From an uncultured Actinomycetes bacterium (GTDB lineage Bacteria; Actinomycetota; Actinomycetes; Nanopelagicales; Nanopelagicaceae), in the NCBI GenBank assembly GCA_903821145.1, contig CAIJKC010000034.1:1-43851 (forward strand): a stretch of 43,851 nt of DNA. Direction: 5' to 3'. This document shows, piece by piece, positions 33,658 to 40,906 of the stretch. Numbering within the stretch: the stretch's first letter is position 1; each line of letters starts with the position of its first letter. The notes beneath the pieces are model-generated. The model saw nothing but the letters and a program-made list of their open reading frames with translations, had not been told where the DNA came from and did no database searches. A program made the translations under genes and the position numbers.

Positions 33658-35100
33658 ATGCGTAGAGCGAAGATTGTTTGCACGATGGGTCCTGCAGTTG
33701 AGGCTCCAGAGAAGATTGATGAACTGATTGCAGCCGGCATGAATATGGCCCGACTCAATCTCTCACACGGGGGATATGAGGAGCACCAGGCTCGCTTTGA
33801 TGGCGTTCGCGCCTCAGCGGCGAAGAGTGGCAAGGCCGTGGCGATTTTGGTCGATCTACAAGGGCCAAAGATTCGCTTGGCACGGTTTAAGGATGGGCCC
33901 CACGAGCTCTTCCGTGGCGATATCTTCACAATTACTACCGATGACGTTGAAGGCACAAAAGAACGTTGCGGCACCACCTACAAGGGCCTGCCAGGAGATT
34001 GCAAGCCTGGAGATCGCATCCTGATCGATGATGGCAAAGTTTCTGTTGAAGTTATCGAAGTAAAGGGAAATGATGTTGTCACGAAGGTAACTCAACCTGG
34101 TTTTGTCTCAAATAATAAGGGCATCAATCTTCCAGGAGTCGCCGTATCGGTTCCAGCGATGTCTGAAAAAGATATTGAGGATCTGCGCTGGGGACTTCGT
34201 GCTGGAGCAGATTTCATCGCGCTCTCATTTGTCCGAAATGCAAAAGATATTGATGATGTTCACGCCATTATGGATGAAGTCGGAATCCGTCGCCCGGTGA
34301 TTGCAAAGATCGAGAAGCCACAGGCTGTCGATAATCTTGCTGAGATCGTCGCTGCCTTTGATGGAATCATGGTCGCCAGAGGTGATCTTGGTGTTGAGAT
34401 GCCGATTGAAGAAGTTCCTCTCGTTCAAAAGCTCTGCATCACGCTCAGCCGAGAAGCTGCGAAGCCGGTAATCGTCGCAACACAGATGCTCGATTCCATG
34501 ATCACTAACTCATCACCAACGCGCGCTGAAGCAACTGACTGCGCAAATGCAGTGCTTGATGGCGCAGATGCGCTCATGCTCTCTGGCGAGACCTCTGTCG
34601 GTGCCTTCGCAATCGAAGCAGTGAAGACAATGGGTCGTATTATTGAACGCACTGAAGAGGCAATGCTTGATCGCATTCCTCATATCCAAGGTGCGCCGAC
34701 AACAAAGGGCGGGGCAATCACTAAGGCCGCTACTGAAATCGGTGCCACAGTTGGGGCGAAGTATCTCGTCGCCTTTACTCAGAGCGGTGAATCTGCCCGT
34801 CGCATCTCACGCTTTCGCTCACCCATCCCAATCTTGGCCCTTACTCCAGAAGTGCCCGTGTACAACCAACTTGCACTCAGTTGGGGCGTGGAGCCACTTA
34901 TTACCCCAACGGTCTCCCATACAGATCAGATGGTGAAGCAGGTAGATAACCTCCTTCTCGACTCTGGGCGTGGAACGAAGGGGGAGCCAGTAGTGATCGT
35001 TGCTGGTGCGCCTCCAGGAATTCCAGGTTCGACCAATGCTGTGCGCGTACACATCATCGGAGATGCCGTCGATGGTGTCGCTGCTGCCTATCGCAGCTAA
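33658..35100 (+). CDS. pyk: Pyruvate kinase
   Basis: Pyruvate kinase converts phosphoenolpyruvate and ADP to pyruvate and ATP, the last step of glycolysis. The 480-residue protein shows RRAKIVCTMGPA, MNMARLNLSHGG, the B-domain inserted after VDLQGPKIRL, the catalytic VIAKIEKPQAV, MVARGDLGVEMP, and the allosteric C-terminal domain with AFTQSGESARRISRFR. The ATG start gives the standard N-terminus. A terminator-like hairpin follows. Its position after gltBD and before pdtaR is familiar from actinobacteria. Confidence 0.97.
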   Translation: MRRAKIVCTMGPAVEAPEKIDELIAAGMNMARLNLSHGGYEEHQARFDGVRASAAKSGKAVAILVDLQGPKIRLARFKDGPHELFRGDIFTITTDDVEGTKERCGTTYKGLPGDCKPGDRILIDDGKVSVEVIEVKGNDVVTKVTQPGFVSNNKGINLPGVAVSVPAMSEKDIEDLRWGLRAGADFIALSFVRNAKDIDDVHAIMDEVGIRRPVIAKIEKPQAVDNLAEIVAAFDGIMVARGDLGVEMPIEEVPLVQKLCITLSREAAKPVIVATQMLDSMITNSSPTRAEATDCANAVLDGADALMLSGETSVGAFAIEAVKTMGRIIERTEEAMLDRIPHIQGAPTTKGGAITKAATEIGATVGAKYLVAFTQSGESARRISRFRSPIPILALTPEVPVYNQLALSWGVEPLITPTVSHTDQMVKQVDNLLLDSGRGTKGEPVVIVAGAPPGIPGSTNAVRVHIIGDAVDGVAAAYRS

Positions 35101-35137
35101 ACATTGCGCTAAGGATCAATAGGAATTCGCTGATTAG

Positions 35138-35164
35138 GGGCAAGGGTTATAAACTCTTGCCCTT
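35138..35164 (+). terminator. Hairpin after pyk
   Basis: Arms 35138-35146 (GGGCAAGGG) and 35154-35162 (CTCTTGCCC) pair over 9 bp with one G-T wobble around a 7-nt AT-rich loop. The following bases are TT then CACCCTTTT, so the T tract is interrupted. It lies 38 nt after the pyk stop and probably ends that transcript before the tRNA gene. Confidence 0.55.
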
Positions 35165-35172
35165 CACCCTTT

Positions 35173-35178
35173 TAGCCT
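35173..35178 (+). promoter_or_regulatory. Possible -10 box of the tRNA-pdtaR transcript
   Basis: TAGCCT fits TAnnnT and lies 23 nt before the mature 5' end of the tRNA, leaving a 5' trailer of about 16 nt for RNase P. No clear -35 is seen, and the upstream hairpin occupies that area. Confidence 0.35.
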
Positions 35179-35201
35179 TCACTAAAGAGAGTGAAAGAGC
35201 G

Positions 35202-35274
35202 GCCTCGGTACTCCAACGGTAGAGAGGGCGGACTCAAAATCCGCACAGTGTCGGTTCAAATCCGACTCGAGGCA
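35202..35274 (+). tRNA. tRNA-Leu with CAA anticodon and short variable loop
   Basis: A cloverleaf folds cleanly. The acceptor stem is GCCTCGG (35202-35208) with TCGAGGC (35267-35273), and the discriminator is A35274. The D arm has a 3-bp stem CTC/GAG and a GGTAGA loop. The anticodon stem is GCGGA/TCCGC with loop CTCAAAA (35233-35239). The T arm is GTCGG-TTCAAAT-CCGAC. The anticodon CAA reads the leucine codon UUG. The 3-bp D stem with a long loop resembles bacterial tRNA-Leu. The variable region is only 5 nt (35245-35249), however, whereas bacterial tRNA-Leu normally has a long arm. CCA is not encoded. The gene ends 1 nt before the pdtaR ATG. Confidence 0.85.
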
Positions 35275-35275
35275 C

Positions 35276-35914
35276 ATGTCAGATAAAACAGGATCGGCTG
35301 AAGTTCCATCGCAAGGCGATGGCGAAGTTCGCAGTGCCCGAATCCTTGTTGCCGAAGATGAGGCGATTATCCGCCTTGATCTTGTGGAAATGCTCACCGA
35401 GGCTGGCTACACCGTCGTCGCGGAAGCAACCAATGGAGTTGAGGCAATTGCTCTCGCAGAAGAGCACAAGCCGGATTTAGCAATCCTTGATGTCAAGATG
35501 CCAGAGCTTGATGGAATATCTGCTGCCGAGAAGATTATTGAAATCGCACCTGTATTGATGCTCACCGCCTTTAGTCAGCGGGACTTGGTTGAGCGTGCAC
35601 GCGATGCGGGCGTGATGGCATATGTGGTGAAGCCTTTTGGCATCGCAGACCTTATTCCTGCGATTGAGATTGCAATGAGCCGTCACACGCAGATGAAATC
35701 ACTTCAAGAAGAAGTAGCTGATCTTCACGAGCGGCTAGAGAGTCGCAAAGTCATTGATCGAGCCAAAGGCATTCTGATGGCGGCTCTCAATCTCACTGAA
35801 CCTCAGGCTTTCACCTGGATTCAACGTGCCGCGATGGATCGACGGATCTCAATGAAGCAGGTCGCTGAGGCTGTTATTTCCCCCGATGCGGTCCCTGACA
35901 ACGCCAAGAAGTAG
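35276..35914 (+). CDS. pdtaR: ANTAR-domain response regulator (PdtaR type)
   Basis: The 212-residue protein has an N-terminal receiver domain (about 20-140) with VAEDEA acids and the phosphoacceptor D72 in LAILDVKMPELDG. A coiled-coil linker (HTQMKSLQEEVADLHERL) and a C-terminal ANTAR RNA-binding domain (ESRKVIDRAKGILM ... EPQAFTWIQRAAMDRR) follow. ANTAR regulators bind paired hairpins in nascent RNA and prevent termination. The sequence is very close to mycobacterial PdtaR, which works with the kinase PdtaS (not in this window). The ATG lies 1 nt after the tRNA. The only Shine-Dalgarno-like bases (GAGG, 35269-35272) are in the tRNA acceptor stem. Confidence 0.93.
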   Translation: MSDKTGSAEVPSQGDGEVRSARILVAEDEAIIRLDLVEMLTEAGYTVVAEATNGVEAIALAEEHKPDLAILDVKMPELDGISAAEKIIEIAPVLMLTAFSQRDLVERARDAGVMAYVVKPFGIADLIPAIEIAMSRHTQMKSLQEEVADLHERLESRKVIDRAKGILMAALNLTEPQAFTWIQRAAMDRRISMKQVAEAVISPDAVPDNAKK

Positions 35915-36016
35915 CCACTGTCGCCAAGGGTTTGCATGAGAACGTCCACATAATGGATTTAACCCAAAAGTAATAAAAAACAAGGCCACCTGCGCGTGAT
36001 CGGGGCCCTAAAAGGC
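35915..36016 (+). other. pdtaR-livK intergenic segment
   Basis: I see no gene here. The region has an A-rich stretch (about 35963-35986) and GC-rich bases beyond. No strong terminator for pdtaR is visible, and no convincing pair of ANTAR-target hairpins (six-base loops with A1 and G4) was found. Confidence 0.5.
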
Positions 36017-36046
36017 TTGTCCAGTTTGGGTGGTTCGGGCTACCCT
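36017..36046 (+). promoter_or_regulatory. Putative livK promoter
   Basis: TTGTCC (36017-36022) and TACCCT (36041-36046) are 18 nt apart. The predicted start near 36053 leaves a leader of about 42 nt that keeps the Shine-Dalgarno AAAGG (36085-36089). An inverted repeat GGGTGG/CTACCC (36028-36033 and 36040-36045) overlaps the spacer and -10 and could be an operator. Confidence 0.5.
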
Positions 36047-36094
36047 TCTCTCCTCCCTGTCCCGGGAAACAACAGGTTAGTAAGAAAGGTTTAC

Positions 36095-37255
36095 ATGAAT
36101 AAGAATTCAACTCGCGTTCTTGGCGCTGCTGCAGCGGCGTTCCTAGCTCTAGGAACATTGACTGCAACTTCTGCTCACGCGGCAACAACAGTAACAATCG
36201 CATTCCAGGGTCCATTGACTGGCGATGCAGCACAGGCTGGTCAAGATGAACTTGCAGGCTTTAAATATGCTCTTGCTGTTTACAATGCAAGCAAGCCAGC
36301 TGTAAAGGTCAACATGATTCAGGTTGACGATCAGGGTTCAGGATCTGTGGCAGCAACAGTTGCTCCAGGTGTTGCTAAGAATAAGGCAGTTATCGGCCTC
36401 GTCGGTTCTGCTTATTCAGGTGCTTCTGCAAACTCATTCCCTTCATACATCGCTGCTGGCCTCACTATGGTCTCGCCTTCAGCTTCACGCGTAACCCTCA
36501 CAACACCACAGGCTCCTGATTTTGGTGGCCCAGTGTTCCACCGCGTTGTTGGTAACGACAGCGTCCAGGGTCCAGCTCTTGCTCGTTACGCAACAAAGGG
36601 TGTAACTGCACCTGCTGTTTACTTGGTAGATGACCAATCTCCTTACGGTGCTGGTCTCGCTCAGTACACAGCTCCTGGCCTTACTAAGGTGAAGGCAACA
36701 ACTGTCGGAACAGATCACATCCTTCCAACAACAGGTACAGACTGGTCTGCAACAACTGCAAAGGTTCTTGCATCAAAGGCTAATGTCGTTATCTACTGTG
36801 GTTACGATGTAGATGCTGGCGCATTCGTTAAGTCACTTCGTGACGGCGGATACACAGGTGTCTTCGCATCAGGCGATGGATCAGCTACTGCTTCATTCGC
36901 TAAGGCTGCTGGAAACGCTGCTGCAAAGGATGCTCGTTTGACCGAAGGTGACACACCTTTCGATAACGTCGCAACTGCTGCTCAGAAGAAGGCTTTCACA
37001 GCTGCAAGCGGAGTTAAGGTTGCTGGCGGATACGTCACCAACACAATCAACGCTTTGAACGTATTCCTTACTTGCATCAAGCAGGGTAAGACAACACGTG
37101 CTGCAATCGCTACTTGCGTTTCAACAGGCAAGTTCCCTAACTTCACAGGTGGAACCTTCTCCTTTGAAGCATGGGGCGATGTCAAGGGTGGAGCGCCAAT
37201 CGGTGCGTACAAGGTTGACGCTACTGGCGCCATCATTTACGTAGGCCAGGCATAA
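36095..37255 (+). CDS. livK: Branched-chain amino acid ABC transporter, substrate-binding protein
   Basis: This 386-residue extracytoplasmic binding protein of the LivJ/LivK (periplasmic-binding type I) family delivers substrate to the LivHMGF permease encoded downstream. It has a signal peptide with hydrophobic Ala/Leu core and a cleavage site after SAHA (about residue 29). No lipobox cysteine is present, which is unusual for a monoderm binding protein. The mature part starts TVTIAFQGPLTGD, typical for the family, with VDDQGSGS and GLVGSAYSG. The ATG at 36095 has AAAGG 5 nt upstream; in-frame upstream codons would not give a signal peptide. Codon choice (many GCT, ACA, AAG) suggests high expression. 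The exact substrate is not certain. Confidence 0.93.
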   Translation: MNKNSTRVLGAAAAAFLALGTLTATSAHAATTVTIAFQGPLTGDAAQAGQDELAGFKYALAVYNASKPAVKVNMIQVDDQGSGSVAATVAPGVAKNKAVIGLVGSAYSGASANSFPSYIAAGLTMVSPSASRVTLTTPQAPDFGGPVFHRVVGNDSVQGPALARYATKGVTAPAVYLVDDQSPYGAGLAQYTAPGLTKVKATTVGTDHILPTTGTDWSATTAKVLASKANVVIYCGYDVDAGAFVKSLRDGGYTGVFASGDGSATASFAKAAGNAAAKDARLTEGDTPFDNVATAAQKKAFTAASGVKVAGGYVTNTINALNVFLTCIKQGKTTRAAIATCVSTGKFPNFTGGTFSFEAWGDVKGGAPIGAYKVDATGAIIYVGQA

Positions 37256-37300
37256 CCAACCAAAACTTGGGAGGGTAGGCCTTCCTAGGTTCTGAAAGTC

Positions 37301-37341
37301 GTGAAGTGCCTGCGGAGAGATCCGTAGGCACTTCACTTATT
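37301..37341 (+). terminator. Strong hairpin between livK and livH
   Basis: Arms 37301-37316 and 37321-37336 form a 16-bp stem (one G-T wobble) with loop GAGA, followed by TTATT. It lies 46 nt after the livK stop. It is either the livK terminator or a partial one that lowers permease expression relative to the binding protein and protects livK mRNA. Confidence 0.85.
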
Positions 37342-37370
37342 TACTCGTGATGTTATGTAGTATCTGCTCC

Positions 37371-37399
37371 TTGGGCACACATCCTTTGTTCGATAGGAA
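37371..37399 (+). promoter_or_regulatory. Possible livH promoter
   Basis: TTGGGC (37371-37376) and TAGGAA (37394-37399) are 17 nt apart, upstream of livH. The second box lacks the final T of TAnnnT. AGGGAG (37402-37407) lies 3 nt before the ATG. A start near 37406 would cut into that site, so the real start may lie elsewhere. Confidence 0.3.
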
Positions 37400-37410
37400 A
37401 TAGGGAGAAA

Positions 37411-38364
37411 ATGAATTTTTCCGTTCTGACCAGCCAATTCTGGTCGCTCTGTTTGAGCGGTCTGAGTTTGGGATTGATCTACGTACTGATCTCCCTTGGT
37501 TACACCATGGTCTATGGCGTACTGCGCCTTATTAACTTTGCCAACTCCGAAATTTTCATGGTTGGAACTTTTGCAACAGTTTGGGTTGAGACTGGCCTTA
37601 CCGGCCACACCTCGAATTCGAATCCACTTCACGGGTTCCAATTGGTTTATACATTGCTCTTTGCCCTCGTTGTCTCGATGCTCGCATCTGGGCTGACCGC
37701 CATCGCAGTTGAATTCCTGGCTTATCGCAGATTACGTGCAAGAGGAACAAATCGATTGGCAAGCTTGATCTCTGCGATCGGAATGTCGATCATTTTGAGC
37801 GAAAGCGCCCGTATCTTGACGCATTCTCGCCCTCAGGCAAGTCCACGTTTGATGGAGAAGACTTCCTTTGGCCATATCGCTGGTGCAAATTTCCGTATTG
37901 ATACTGTGCTGGTGGTCATCTCTGCTCTACTTATGTTCTTTGCTCTAGACCGATTCGTTAATAAGAGTCGTCTTGGCAAGGCAATTCGCGCAGTGTCGAT
38001 GTCGGAAGAGAATGCCAAGCTCATGGGCATCAACCTCAATCGCGTGATCTCCGTAACCTTCCTCATCGGTGGACTTATGACCGGAGCAGCAGCTTTCTTC
38101 TTCATGACTGTCTATGAGACGACCAAGTTCAACGTTGGCTTCAACTTAGGACTCGCCGCATTCACCGCTGCCGTTCTTGGTGGAATCGGTAATCTGCGAG
38201 GCGCATTCTTCGGTGGCATCGCACTTGGACTGCTTGAGACGATGTCTGCAGCGGTCCTTGGTAGCCAATGGAAGTCAGTGACAGTTTTTGTGGTCTTAGT
38301 ACTTGTCCTATTAGTTCGACCAAATGGAATATTTGGCGAAGCGATCCAGCAGACGAGGGTCTAA
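37411..38364 (+). CDS. livH: Branched-chain amino acid ABC transporter permease LivH
   Basis: LivH is one of two membrane subunits of the LIV-type importer. The 317-residue protein has about eight hydrophobic helices and the family segments LSLGLIYVLISLGYTMVYGVLRLINFANSE at the N-terminus (in pieces) and VSMSEENAKLMGINLNRVI, the cytoplasmic loop that contacts the ATPases. GLAAFTAAVLGGIGN and GALLE-type segments follow near the C-terminus. The ATG has AGGGAG 3 nt upstream. It is separated from livK by a strong hairpin but followed by livM after 2 nt. Confidence 0.95.
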   Translation: MNFSVLTSQFWSLCLSGLSLGLIYVLISLGYTMVYGVLRLINFANSEIFMVGTFATVWVETGLTGHTSNSNPLHGFQLVYTLLFALVVSMLASGLTAIAVEFLAYRRLRARGTNRLASLISAIGMSIILSESARILTHSRPQASPRLMEKTSFGHIAGANFRIDTVLVVISALLMFFALDRFVNKSRLGKAIRAVSMSEENAKLMGINLNRVISVTFLIGGLMTGAAAFFFMTVYETTKFNVGFNLGLAAFTAAVLGGIGNLRGAFFGGIALGLLETMSAAVLGSQWKSVTVFVVLVLVLLVRPNGIFGEAIQQTRV

Positions 38365-38366
38365 TC

Positions 38367-39416
38367 ATGAAACTCACTGATATTAATCTTCGTGATAAGG
38401 GCGCAGCGATCTGGGAAGGTTGGGATCGCCCACGACGCACTATCTTCGTCATAGCCCTTATAGCTTTGGTGGGAATCATGCCGTTTGCGGGCAACTTCTC
38501 CTTCACAAGCATTCTCGATACTCCGATCTCCTCCTACCAAGATGTCCTGGTCTATCCAATCGGGATGTTCGTACTCATGGGCCTTGGGCTCAATATTGTT
38601 GTGGGTAAGAGCGGACTGCTCGATCTGGGTTACGTAGCCTTCTTCGCTATCGGCGCCTATACGATGGCGATTCTTTCAACTCGAACGCACCTTAATGCGT
38701 GGGAGATCCTTCCAATCGGAATGGGTCTTGCAATGCTCTCTGGCGTCTTGCTTGGTCTTCCAACCTTACGTCTGCGCGGTGATTACCTTGCGATTGTGAC
38801 ACTTGGCTTTGGTGAGATCGTCCGTATCGTCACTCTTAATATTTCAGTTACTGGTGGAACAAATGGAATCGCTCGAATCCCTAATCCACCTGCGATTGGG
38901 CCATTGAAGTTTGGCTTGATGAATTCCGTGAACTTCTTCTGGTTGGTCTTTGCAATGATCCTTCTCGTTATTTGGATGATCCGTCGACTCTCTGTTCGTC
39001 GTCCAGGCCGCGCCTGGGAGGCGATCCGCCAGGACGAAGACGTAGCCATGCTTATGGGTGTTCCTACTCTTCGCTACAAGATTTGGTCCTTTAGCATCGG
39101 CGCCGCTGTCGGTGGGGCTGCCGGTGTTATCTATGCTTCCAAGGTCATGGTTATTGCGCCGCAGATGTTCACCTTCAACGTTTCTGTGCTCATCCTTTCC
39201 TGTATCGTCTTTGGCGGTATGGGAAATATGTGGGGAGTTGTCTTCGGGGGAGTGATCTTGGCTTATCTGCCAGAGCGAATCCGCTTCATCACGGATGCCC
39301 GCCAGCTCGTCTATGGCATCGTGCTCGTTGTTATTATGAACGTGCGACCAGATGGGCTCTTGCCACGCAAGAAGCGAGAGAAGATCAAGGCAAAGACGGG
39401 AGCCAAGAATGTCTAA
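38367..39416 (+). CDS. livM: Branched-chain amino acid ABC transporter permease LivM
   Basis: LivM is the second membrane subunit. The 349-residue protein carries a hydrophilic N-terminus, then about nine hydrophobic segments. Family motifs are GLNIVVGKSGLLDLGYVAFFAIGAY (in pieces), LRLRGDYLAIVTLGFGEIVR, the coupling loop GRAWEAIRQDEDVAMLMG, and FGGMGNMWG. The ATG at 38367 follows the livH stop by 2 nt and has GAGGG upstream; an in-frame ATG inside livH is rejected because it adds a non-homologous tail. The C-terminus is Lys-rich. It overlaps livG by 8 nt. Confidence 0.95.
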   Translation: MKLTDINLRDKGAAIWEGWDRPRRTIFVIALIALVGIMPFAGNFSFTSILDTPISSYQDVLVYPIGMFVLMGLGLNIVVGKSGLLDLGYVAFFAIGAYTMAILSTRTHLNAWEILPIGMGLAMLSGVLLGLPTLRLRGDYLAIVTLGFGEIVRIVTLNISVTGGTNGIARIPNPPAIGPLKFGLMNSVNFFWLVFAMILLVIWMIRRLSVRRPGRAWEAIRQDEDVAMLMGVPTLRYKIWSFSIGAAVGGAAGVIYASKVMVIAPQMFTFNVSVLILSCIVFGGMGNMWGVVFGGVILAYLPERIRFITDARQLVYGIVLVVIMNVRPDGLLPRKKREKIKAKTGAKNV

Positions 39417-40194
39417 TAATTCTGAACTTGTTCTCGAACTCGACAATGTTGTTATGCAATTTGGAGGCGTTCGCGCACTCGATACCGTCAATCTCTCAGT
39501 CAAAAAAGGCGAGATCTGCGCCCTTATCGGTCCAAACGGTGCTGGCAAGACGACAGTCTTTAACGTAATCACTGGGGTTTACGCGGTAACAGAAGGCGAG
39601 ATCCGCTTCAACGGTCTAAACCTTGCTGGCAAAAAGCGCAACAAGATTACCCAGATGGGTATTGCCCGTACTTTCCAGAACGTGCGCCTCTTTGGTGATA
39701 TGACTGCGCTTGAGAATGTTATTACAGCAACCGATGTTCACAAGAAGTCCGGATTGGTGGGAGCACTCTTTGGCTCACCTAAGTCGCGTAGAGAAGAGAG
39801 AGAGTCGGCGGCCAAGGCCCATGAACTCTTAGCCTTCCTAGGCATTGATCACCGTGCAGATCAACTTGCACGCAATCTGCCTTATGGTGATCAACGCAGA
39901 CTTGAGATCGCCCGTGCCCTGGGAACAAATCCTCAACTTCTTCTTCTTGATGAGCCTGCTGCGGGATTCAACCCTGCAGAGAAAGTGGCACTCGCCGCAG
40001 ATATCAAGCGAATTCGTGATGCTGGATACACCGTTCTCCTGATCGAACACGATATGTCCCTCATCATGGGTATTTCAGATCGTGTGATTGTGCTCGACTT
40101 TGGTAAAAAGATTGCTGATGATCTGCCAAGCGTTGTTCAAAATGATCCAAAGGTTATTGAAGCCTATTTAGGAGTGCCCACCGATGCGTCTTGA
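39409..40194 (+). CDS. livG: Branched-chain amino acid ABC transporter ATPase LivG
   Basis: LivG is one of two cytoplasmic ATPases that power the importer. The 261-residue protein has Walker A GPNGAGKTT, the Q-loop region IARTFQNVRLF, a LivG-type signature LPYGDQRRLEIARAL in place of LSGGQ, Walker B LLLLDEPAAG and the switch His in LLIEHDMSL. The ATG at 39409 overlaps livM by 8 nt and follows GGGAG at suitable spacing. The next gene, livF, overlaps it by 11 nt. Confidence 0.96.
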   Translation: MSNNSELVLELDNVVMQFGGVRALDTVNLSVKKGEICALIGPNGAGKTTVFNVITGVYAVTEGEIRFNGLNLAGKKRNKITQMGIARTFQNVRLFGDMTALENVITATDVHKKSGLVGALFGSPKSRREERESAAKAHELLAFLGIDHRADQLARNLPYGDQRRLEIARALGTNPQLLLLDEPAAGFNPAEKVALAADIKRIRDAGYTVLLIEHDMSLIMGISDRVIVLDFGKKIADDLPSVVQNDPKVIEAYLGVPTDAS

Positions 40195-40906
40195 AATTAA
40201 AGATCTTCACGTCTTTTACGGCAAGATTGAAGCCATCAAGGGAATTAGCGTTGTCGTCAACCAAGGCGAGATCGTCACCCTTATCGGGGCCAATGGTGCT
40301 GGCAAGACGACGACCCTTAAGACGATTTCAGGACTTCGCCCAGTTTCATCCGGAGCAATTCTCTTCGATGGCCAGGATATTTCTGGCATGTCAGCCCATC
40401 AACGTGTGGAGATTGGCATCTCACAGGTTCCTGAAGGACGTGGAATTTTCCCTGGCATGAGCGTTCTTGAGAACCTTGAGATCGGCAAATATTTCCGCAA
40501 GGATCGCAAATCAGAGATGCAGGAGGATCTGGAGAAGGTCTACTCGCTCTTCCCTCGCTTGAAGGAGAGAACATCTCAGTCAGGTGGAACCCTTTCGGGA
40601 GGCGAGCAGCAGATGTTGGCAATCGGGCGAGCCTTGATGTCACGTCCTAAGGTTTTGCTTCTTGATGAACCATCGATGGGTCTAGCCCCAATGATGATCC
40701 AAAATATCTTCAACATCATCACGGAGATCAACAAGAGTCTTGGAACCACAATCCTTCTCGTTGAACAAAATGCGCAACAAGCGCTACAACGTGCTGACCG
40801 CGCCTATGTTCTTGAGACAGGTAAAGTCGTTAAAGAGGCAAAGGCCTCAGATCTTCTCAATGATCCAGCGGTTCGCGAGGCATATCTTGGAACTGGTGCT
40901 CACTAA
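40184..40906 (+). CDS. livF: Branched-chain amino acid ABC transporter ATPase LivF
   Basis: LivF is the second ATPase. The 240-residue protein carries Walker A GANGAGKTT, the Q-loop ISQVPEGRGIFPGMSVLENL (typical LivF), signature LSGGEQQMLAIGRAL, Walker B VLLLDEPSMGLAP and switch His replaced by Gln in LLVEQNAQQAL. That substitution is normal for LivF. The start overlaps livG by 11 nt with AGGAG upstream. The stop lies inside a palindrome that likely terminates the operon. Confidence 0.96.
   Translation: MRLEIKDLHVFYGKIEAIKGISVVVNQGEIVTLIGANGAGKTTTLKTISGLRPVSSGAILFDGQDISGMSAHQRVEIGISQVPEGRGIFPGMSVLENLEIGKYFRKDRKSEMQEDLEKVYSLFPRLKERTSQSGGTLSGGEQQMLAIGRALMSRPKVLLLDEPSMGLAPMMIQNIFNIITEINKSLGTTILLVEQNAQQALQRADRAYVLETGKVVKEAKASDLLNDPAVREAYLGTGAH

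Follow-up and report, generated by a model that had tools for sequence, protein, structure and literature searches.

The window, a 43,851-nucleotide stretch of DNA from an uncultured member of the Nanopelagicaceae, carries on its forward strand (35202–35274) a gene for what is very probably an ordinary, working leucine tRNA, one that decodes UUG but whose class II variable arm has been lost. Together with an equally armless tRNA-Leu(UAA), it would make up the UUR-decoding set of this organism, with the CUN isoacceptors retaining their long arms. Outside animal mitochondria, leucine tRNAs are taught to have the long arm invariably (PMC9976931). The bacteria found here to carry an armless UUR tRNA-Leu include Mycolicibacterium, Nocardia, Gordonia and Arthrobacter. 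As UUG and UUA still mean leucine, the long arm is dispensable in nature for leucine tRNAs.

The gene is a clean tRNA with the anticodon CAA, a leucine-type D arm, an A15–U48 pair, A73 and a variable loop of five nucleotides; CCA is not encoded. ARAGORN calls tRNA-Leu (CAA) at 35202–35275, and the Rfam tRNA model RF00005 spans 35202–35274 with 55.7 bits (cut-off 29). The 5' strand of the acceptor stem (GCCTCGG, 35202–35208) pairs with TCGAGGC at 35267–35273 to give seven base pairs, one of them G-U. The D arm (35211–35227) has the leucine layout, with a three-base-pair stem (CTC/GAG) and the loop CAACGGTAGA, followed by G26; its residues include A14, A15, G18 and G19, and U20, A20a, G20b and A21, and the loop contains GGTAGA. 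Comparative alignment places the D stem at 10–12/23–25 with a ten-nucleotide loop, in place of the slipped GAG pairing given by a single-sequence fold. The anticodon arm (GCGGA-CTCAAAA-TCCGC, 35228–35244) presents CAA and is supported by ARAGORN and covariation. The variable loop, ACAGT (35245–35249), lies where the long arm would be, and its U48 preserves the A15–U48 pair. The T arm (GTCGG-TTCAAAT-CCGAC) occupies 35250–35266, and the discriminator at 35274 is A73, a leucine determinant. A prior reading of the letters alone (the sequence-only reading) had described this cloverleaf, its anticodon, variable loop and A73, and both its coordinates and its anatomy are confirmed.

The tRNA structure is not a product of chance. 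The folding z-score of 35202–35274 is -2.5, and all four helices hold across 23 homologues with many double changes: 99.3% of helix cells pair, and both sides have changed in 17 of 20 pairs. The covariation score in these homologues is 0.758, against 0.224 after shuffling; with the partners slid it stays at or below 0.117, so that the signal is gone once they are displaced. The leucine-type D arm (three-base-pair stem, GGYAGA loop) is present in 23 of 23 aligned homologues, of which almost every one also has U48.

By structure the molecule falls outside class II, for which a variable region of at least ten nucleotides is required, and takes the class I form, in which this region measures four to five nucleotides. 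It is also not an allo-tRNA; these have 8/4 or 9/3 acceptor/T arms, and the tRNA described here has the ordinary 7/5 arrangement. By function, its anticodon is that of a leucine tRNA. At the level of sequence, the E. coli leucine determinants A73, A14, A15–U48, G18G19 and A20a are all present.

The source genome, a draft of 1.34 Mb that is 98.5% complete and has 38 tRNAs, contains a second armless leucine tRNA, tRNA-Leu(UAA), of the same short form. Its CUN tRNA-Leu genes (UAG and GAG) keep the long arm. Two single-contig relatives that belong to the family but to other genera show exactly the same division, with UAA and CAA armless and UAG and GAG long. When all tRNAs of at least 79 nucleotides in these two relatives were examined, no long-arm UUR tRNA was found, which indicates that the armless UAA and CAA pair does all UUR decoding there; a search of the genome for a second, class II tRNA-Leu(CAA) had been proposed by the sequence-only reading. 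In the source draft, tRNA-Pro and tRNA-Lys(UUU) were not found, probably because of assembly gaps. In the locus L035 (267–341, minus strand) we observed a second tRNA of the Val(GAC) type, with U37 and an anticodon loop that is either closed by an A-A mismatch or nine nucleotides long.

The meaning of the UUR codons was examined in the DnaE and GltB genes of the window, whose UUR residues were masked ahead of alignment to homologues. In 32 UUA/UUG columns the mean frequency of leucine is 0.60 and that of isoleucine 0.14, and the mean leucine frequency at 223 CUN positions is 0.63. Leucine is the best BLOSUM residue for UUA and for UUG, and 19 of the 22 strongly conserved UUR columns are leucine. 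UUA and UUG therefore specify leucine in the source genome with the same profile as CUN, and the tRNA is not of the recoding kind, whose codon aligns with a non-standard amino acid. Given leucine at UUR columns and no other UUR reader found, leucine must be the amino acid on the armless tRNAs.

These data bear directly on the proposal that an amino acid other than leucine is attached to the tRNA, with UUG, or UUR as a whole, reassigned or ambiguous. A leucine anticodon on a class I body invites this reading. However, the UUR columns match the CUN columns as leucine, A73, A15–U48 and A20a are retained, and, both UUR readers being armless, a reassignment would affect every UUR codon; we consider it highly improbable. 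The same low probability attaches to a pseudogene or a tRNA-like element with a purely regulatory role. The gene does border directly on a response regulator's start codon, but the compensatory covariation is strong and the complete relatives have no long-arm UUR tRNA to do the decoding in its stead. Thus, of the outcomes entertained by the sequence-only reading, a different amino acid or a role outside translation finds no support, whereas acceptance of the shortened body by leucyl-tRNA synthetase (LeuRS) is favoured by the retained leucine determinants, by the leucine meaning of UUR and by the armless tRNAs being the only UUR readers found in the complete relatives.

A further alternative concerns origin and leaves function the same: a class I tRNA, for example of the Met or Thr type, may have gained a leucine anticodon and later the leucine determinants. 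Apart from each other, the tRNAs nearest to the two armless genes by whole-sequence similarity in the source genome include Met, Thr and Lys, and this measure gives no pointer to a class II leucine parent. Similarity to class I tRNAs is, however, to be expected after arm loss, and the leucine-type D arm in every aligned homologue, with U48 in nearly all, argues against such a conversion, which we regard as unlikely. Loss of the arm from a class II ancestor is instead suggested by the D-arm layout and the A15–U48 pair rather than by a tree.

The single bacterial LeuRS probably recognises the armless tRNA by A73 and the core formed by the D and T loops (A14, A15–U48, G18G19 and A20a), features that need no arm. 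In E. coli, leucine identity resides in A73, A15–U48, G18G19 and A20a, and the sequence and folding of the long arm show no correlation with leucylation; sequence-specific recognition of the arm is unique to Archaea (PMC9976931). E. coli variants without the anticodon arm and the variable arm are still charged, according to the same review (PMC9976931). By analogy, charging by the LeuRS of this clade appears likely from the determinants present. Without the arm, the tRNA would also lack the feature that SerRS uses to identify its class II tRNAs. We found one bacterial LeuRS in the source genome, of 823 amino acids (962 bits to TIGR00396) and T. thermophilus-like. This protein (L423, 264–2732) has no insert ahead of the KMSKS loop, where T. 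thermophilus LeuRS has one, and distant members of the class have a longer, divergent LeuRS. We rejected the idea that armless tRNAs go with a particular type of LeuRS, since both the compact form (source genome and relatives, G040, G041) and the longer divergent form (G039, G066) co-occur with armless tRNAs.

Compared with bacterial class II tRNA-Leu of the E. coli type, the tRNA shares CAA, A73, A14, A15–U48, G18G19, A20a, the three-base-pair D stem and the GGYAGA loop, and differs in having a variable region of five nucleotides rather than at least ten. Animal mitochondrial tRNA-Leu(UUR) likewise reads UUR without a long arm and is leucylated via A73 and A14 (PMC9976931). However, it is organellar and loosely folded, whereas the tRNA described here is cellular and fully paired and has long-armed CUN isoacceptors. 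A tRNA-Leu(UAG) with a short variable loop was reported in 2019 from a mycobacterial tRNA cluster (PMC6582537); it is an extra copy beside a normal chromosomal gene, in contrast to the main chromosomal UUR gene described here. MiaA accepts in vitro a transcript of an M. tuberculosis tRNA-Leu(CAA) whose anticodon fragment, as printed, looks like that of the armless type (PMC9336784). In a 2024 account of the M. tuberculosis tRNA-Leu set, only Leu-2, 3 and 5 are named as long-looped, which would imply that the others are short (PMC11541572).

A 2023 review holds long arms to be universal for tRNA-Leu outside animal mitochondria (PMC9976931), and we found in the open literature no description of a bacterial phylum whose normal UUR reader is an armless tRNA-Leu, subscription papers lying outside the search; priority of description is uncertain. 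Standard tools name the armless genes tRNA-Leu. Isotype models trained on long-arm leucine tRNAs may misjudge them. Another tRNA that shares the Leu CAA anticodon and the absence of a long arm differs from the one described here, being seven changes away from a Met tRNA and assigned by the isotype model to Met and not Leu. The armless tRNAs provide a natural counterpart to the minimal-tRNA experiments in E. coli, and their handling by LeuRS, SerRS, modification enzymes and tRNA-targeting toxins becomes testable.

Whether relatives carry such a gene had been left undecided by the sequence-only reading; they do so widely, at the level of genus, class and phylum. Nearly all of 32 genomes of the genus carry the armless tRNA, as does a sister genus. 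For the class and phylum we used a strict 45-base pattern with the variable loop fixed at five nucleotides, which replaced earlier variable-gap patterns that missed genera with GGCAGA loops. It detected armless UUR tRNA-Leu in 207 of 297 genomes and 84 of 114 genera of the class and in about 59 of 336 genomes from the rest of the phylum; D-loop and T-loop variants escape it, so that a non-match does not mean absence. A reversed control pattern gave no matches in either scan.

A scan of named organisms was confined to loops without A46, to widen the sample. About 60 of the 80 records listed are Actinomycetota, nearly all with the armless gene as the sole tRNA in 8 kb. The named matches, mostly lone chromosomal genes, include Nocardioides, Arthrobacter, Gordonia, Nocardia and Mycolicibacterium. 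The remaining records come from Planctomycetes, Cyanobacteria, Acidobacteria, Chloroflexi and Myxococcota, mostly with 9–34 tRNAs per locus; outside Actinomycetota the armless UUR tRNA-Leu thus sits mostly in dense tRNA arrays. Array loci from the first four of these groups include L283, L297, L302, L304, L319, L330 and L345. In addition, at least 120 stretches of viral contigs (L157–L236 among them) match the pattern for armless tRNA-Leu(UUR). Vertical descent is suggested by several genera of the class in which a short CAA gene lies within about 20–120 nucleotides of pyruvate kinase, on the opposite strand. The armless state probably has a long history of inheritance within Actinomycetota; tRNA arrays and viruses carry it as well.

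In the window the tRNA follows a pyruvate kinase gene (pyk, 33658–35100, forward strand; TIGR01064, 538.9 bits), a conserved neighbour. Downstream, on the same strand, are a response regulator with a receiver and an ANTAR RNA-binding domain (35276–35914), whose start codon lies one nucleotide past A73, and branched-chain amino acid ABC transporter genes (35996–40906) for a binding protein, LivH-like and LivM-like proteins and two ATPases. The order at 33658–40906 sets a leucine tRNA beside genes for leucine transport.

All complete loci of the family, 26 of 26, have the regulator start exactly one nucleotide past A73 (24 ATG, 2 GTG; 35274–35278 of the window, L039–L068 and L143), although the sequences that follow differ (24 distinct). 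For tRNA-Leu(UAA) no fixed one-nucleotide spacing to a start codon is seen, and outside the family the distance from tRNA to regulator is about 350–380 nucleotides in the three loci where both were seen. Near the tRNA gene we found no match to a sigma-70 promoter or a terminator, and the nearest Shine-Dalgarno-like GAGG upstream of the regulator start lies within the tRNA acceptor stem. If processing cut the transcript just behind A73, the regulator mRNA would begin with C-AUG and be near-leaderless, and such processing-coupled expression is plausible from this arrangement. That tRNA-Leu(CAA) maturation also serves a regulatory purpose in this family is possible but doubtful; if it does, production of a leucine tRNA would be tied to a regulator adjoining the genes for branched-chain amino acid (leucine) transport.
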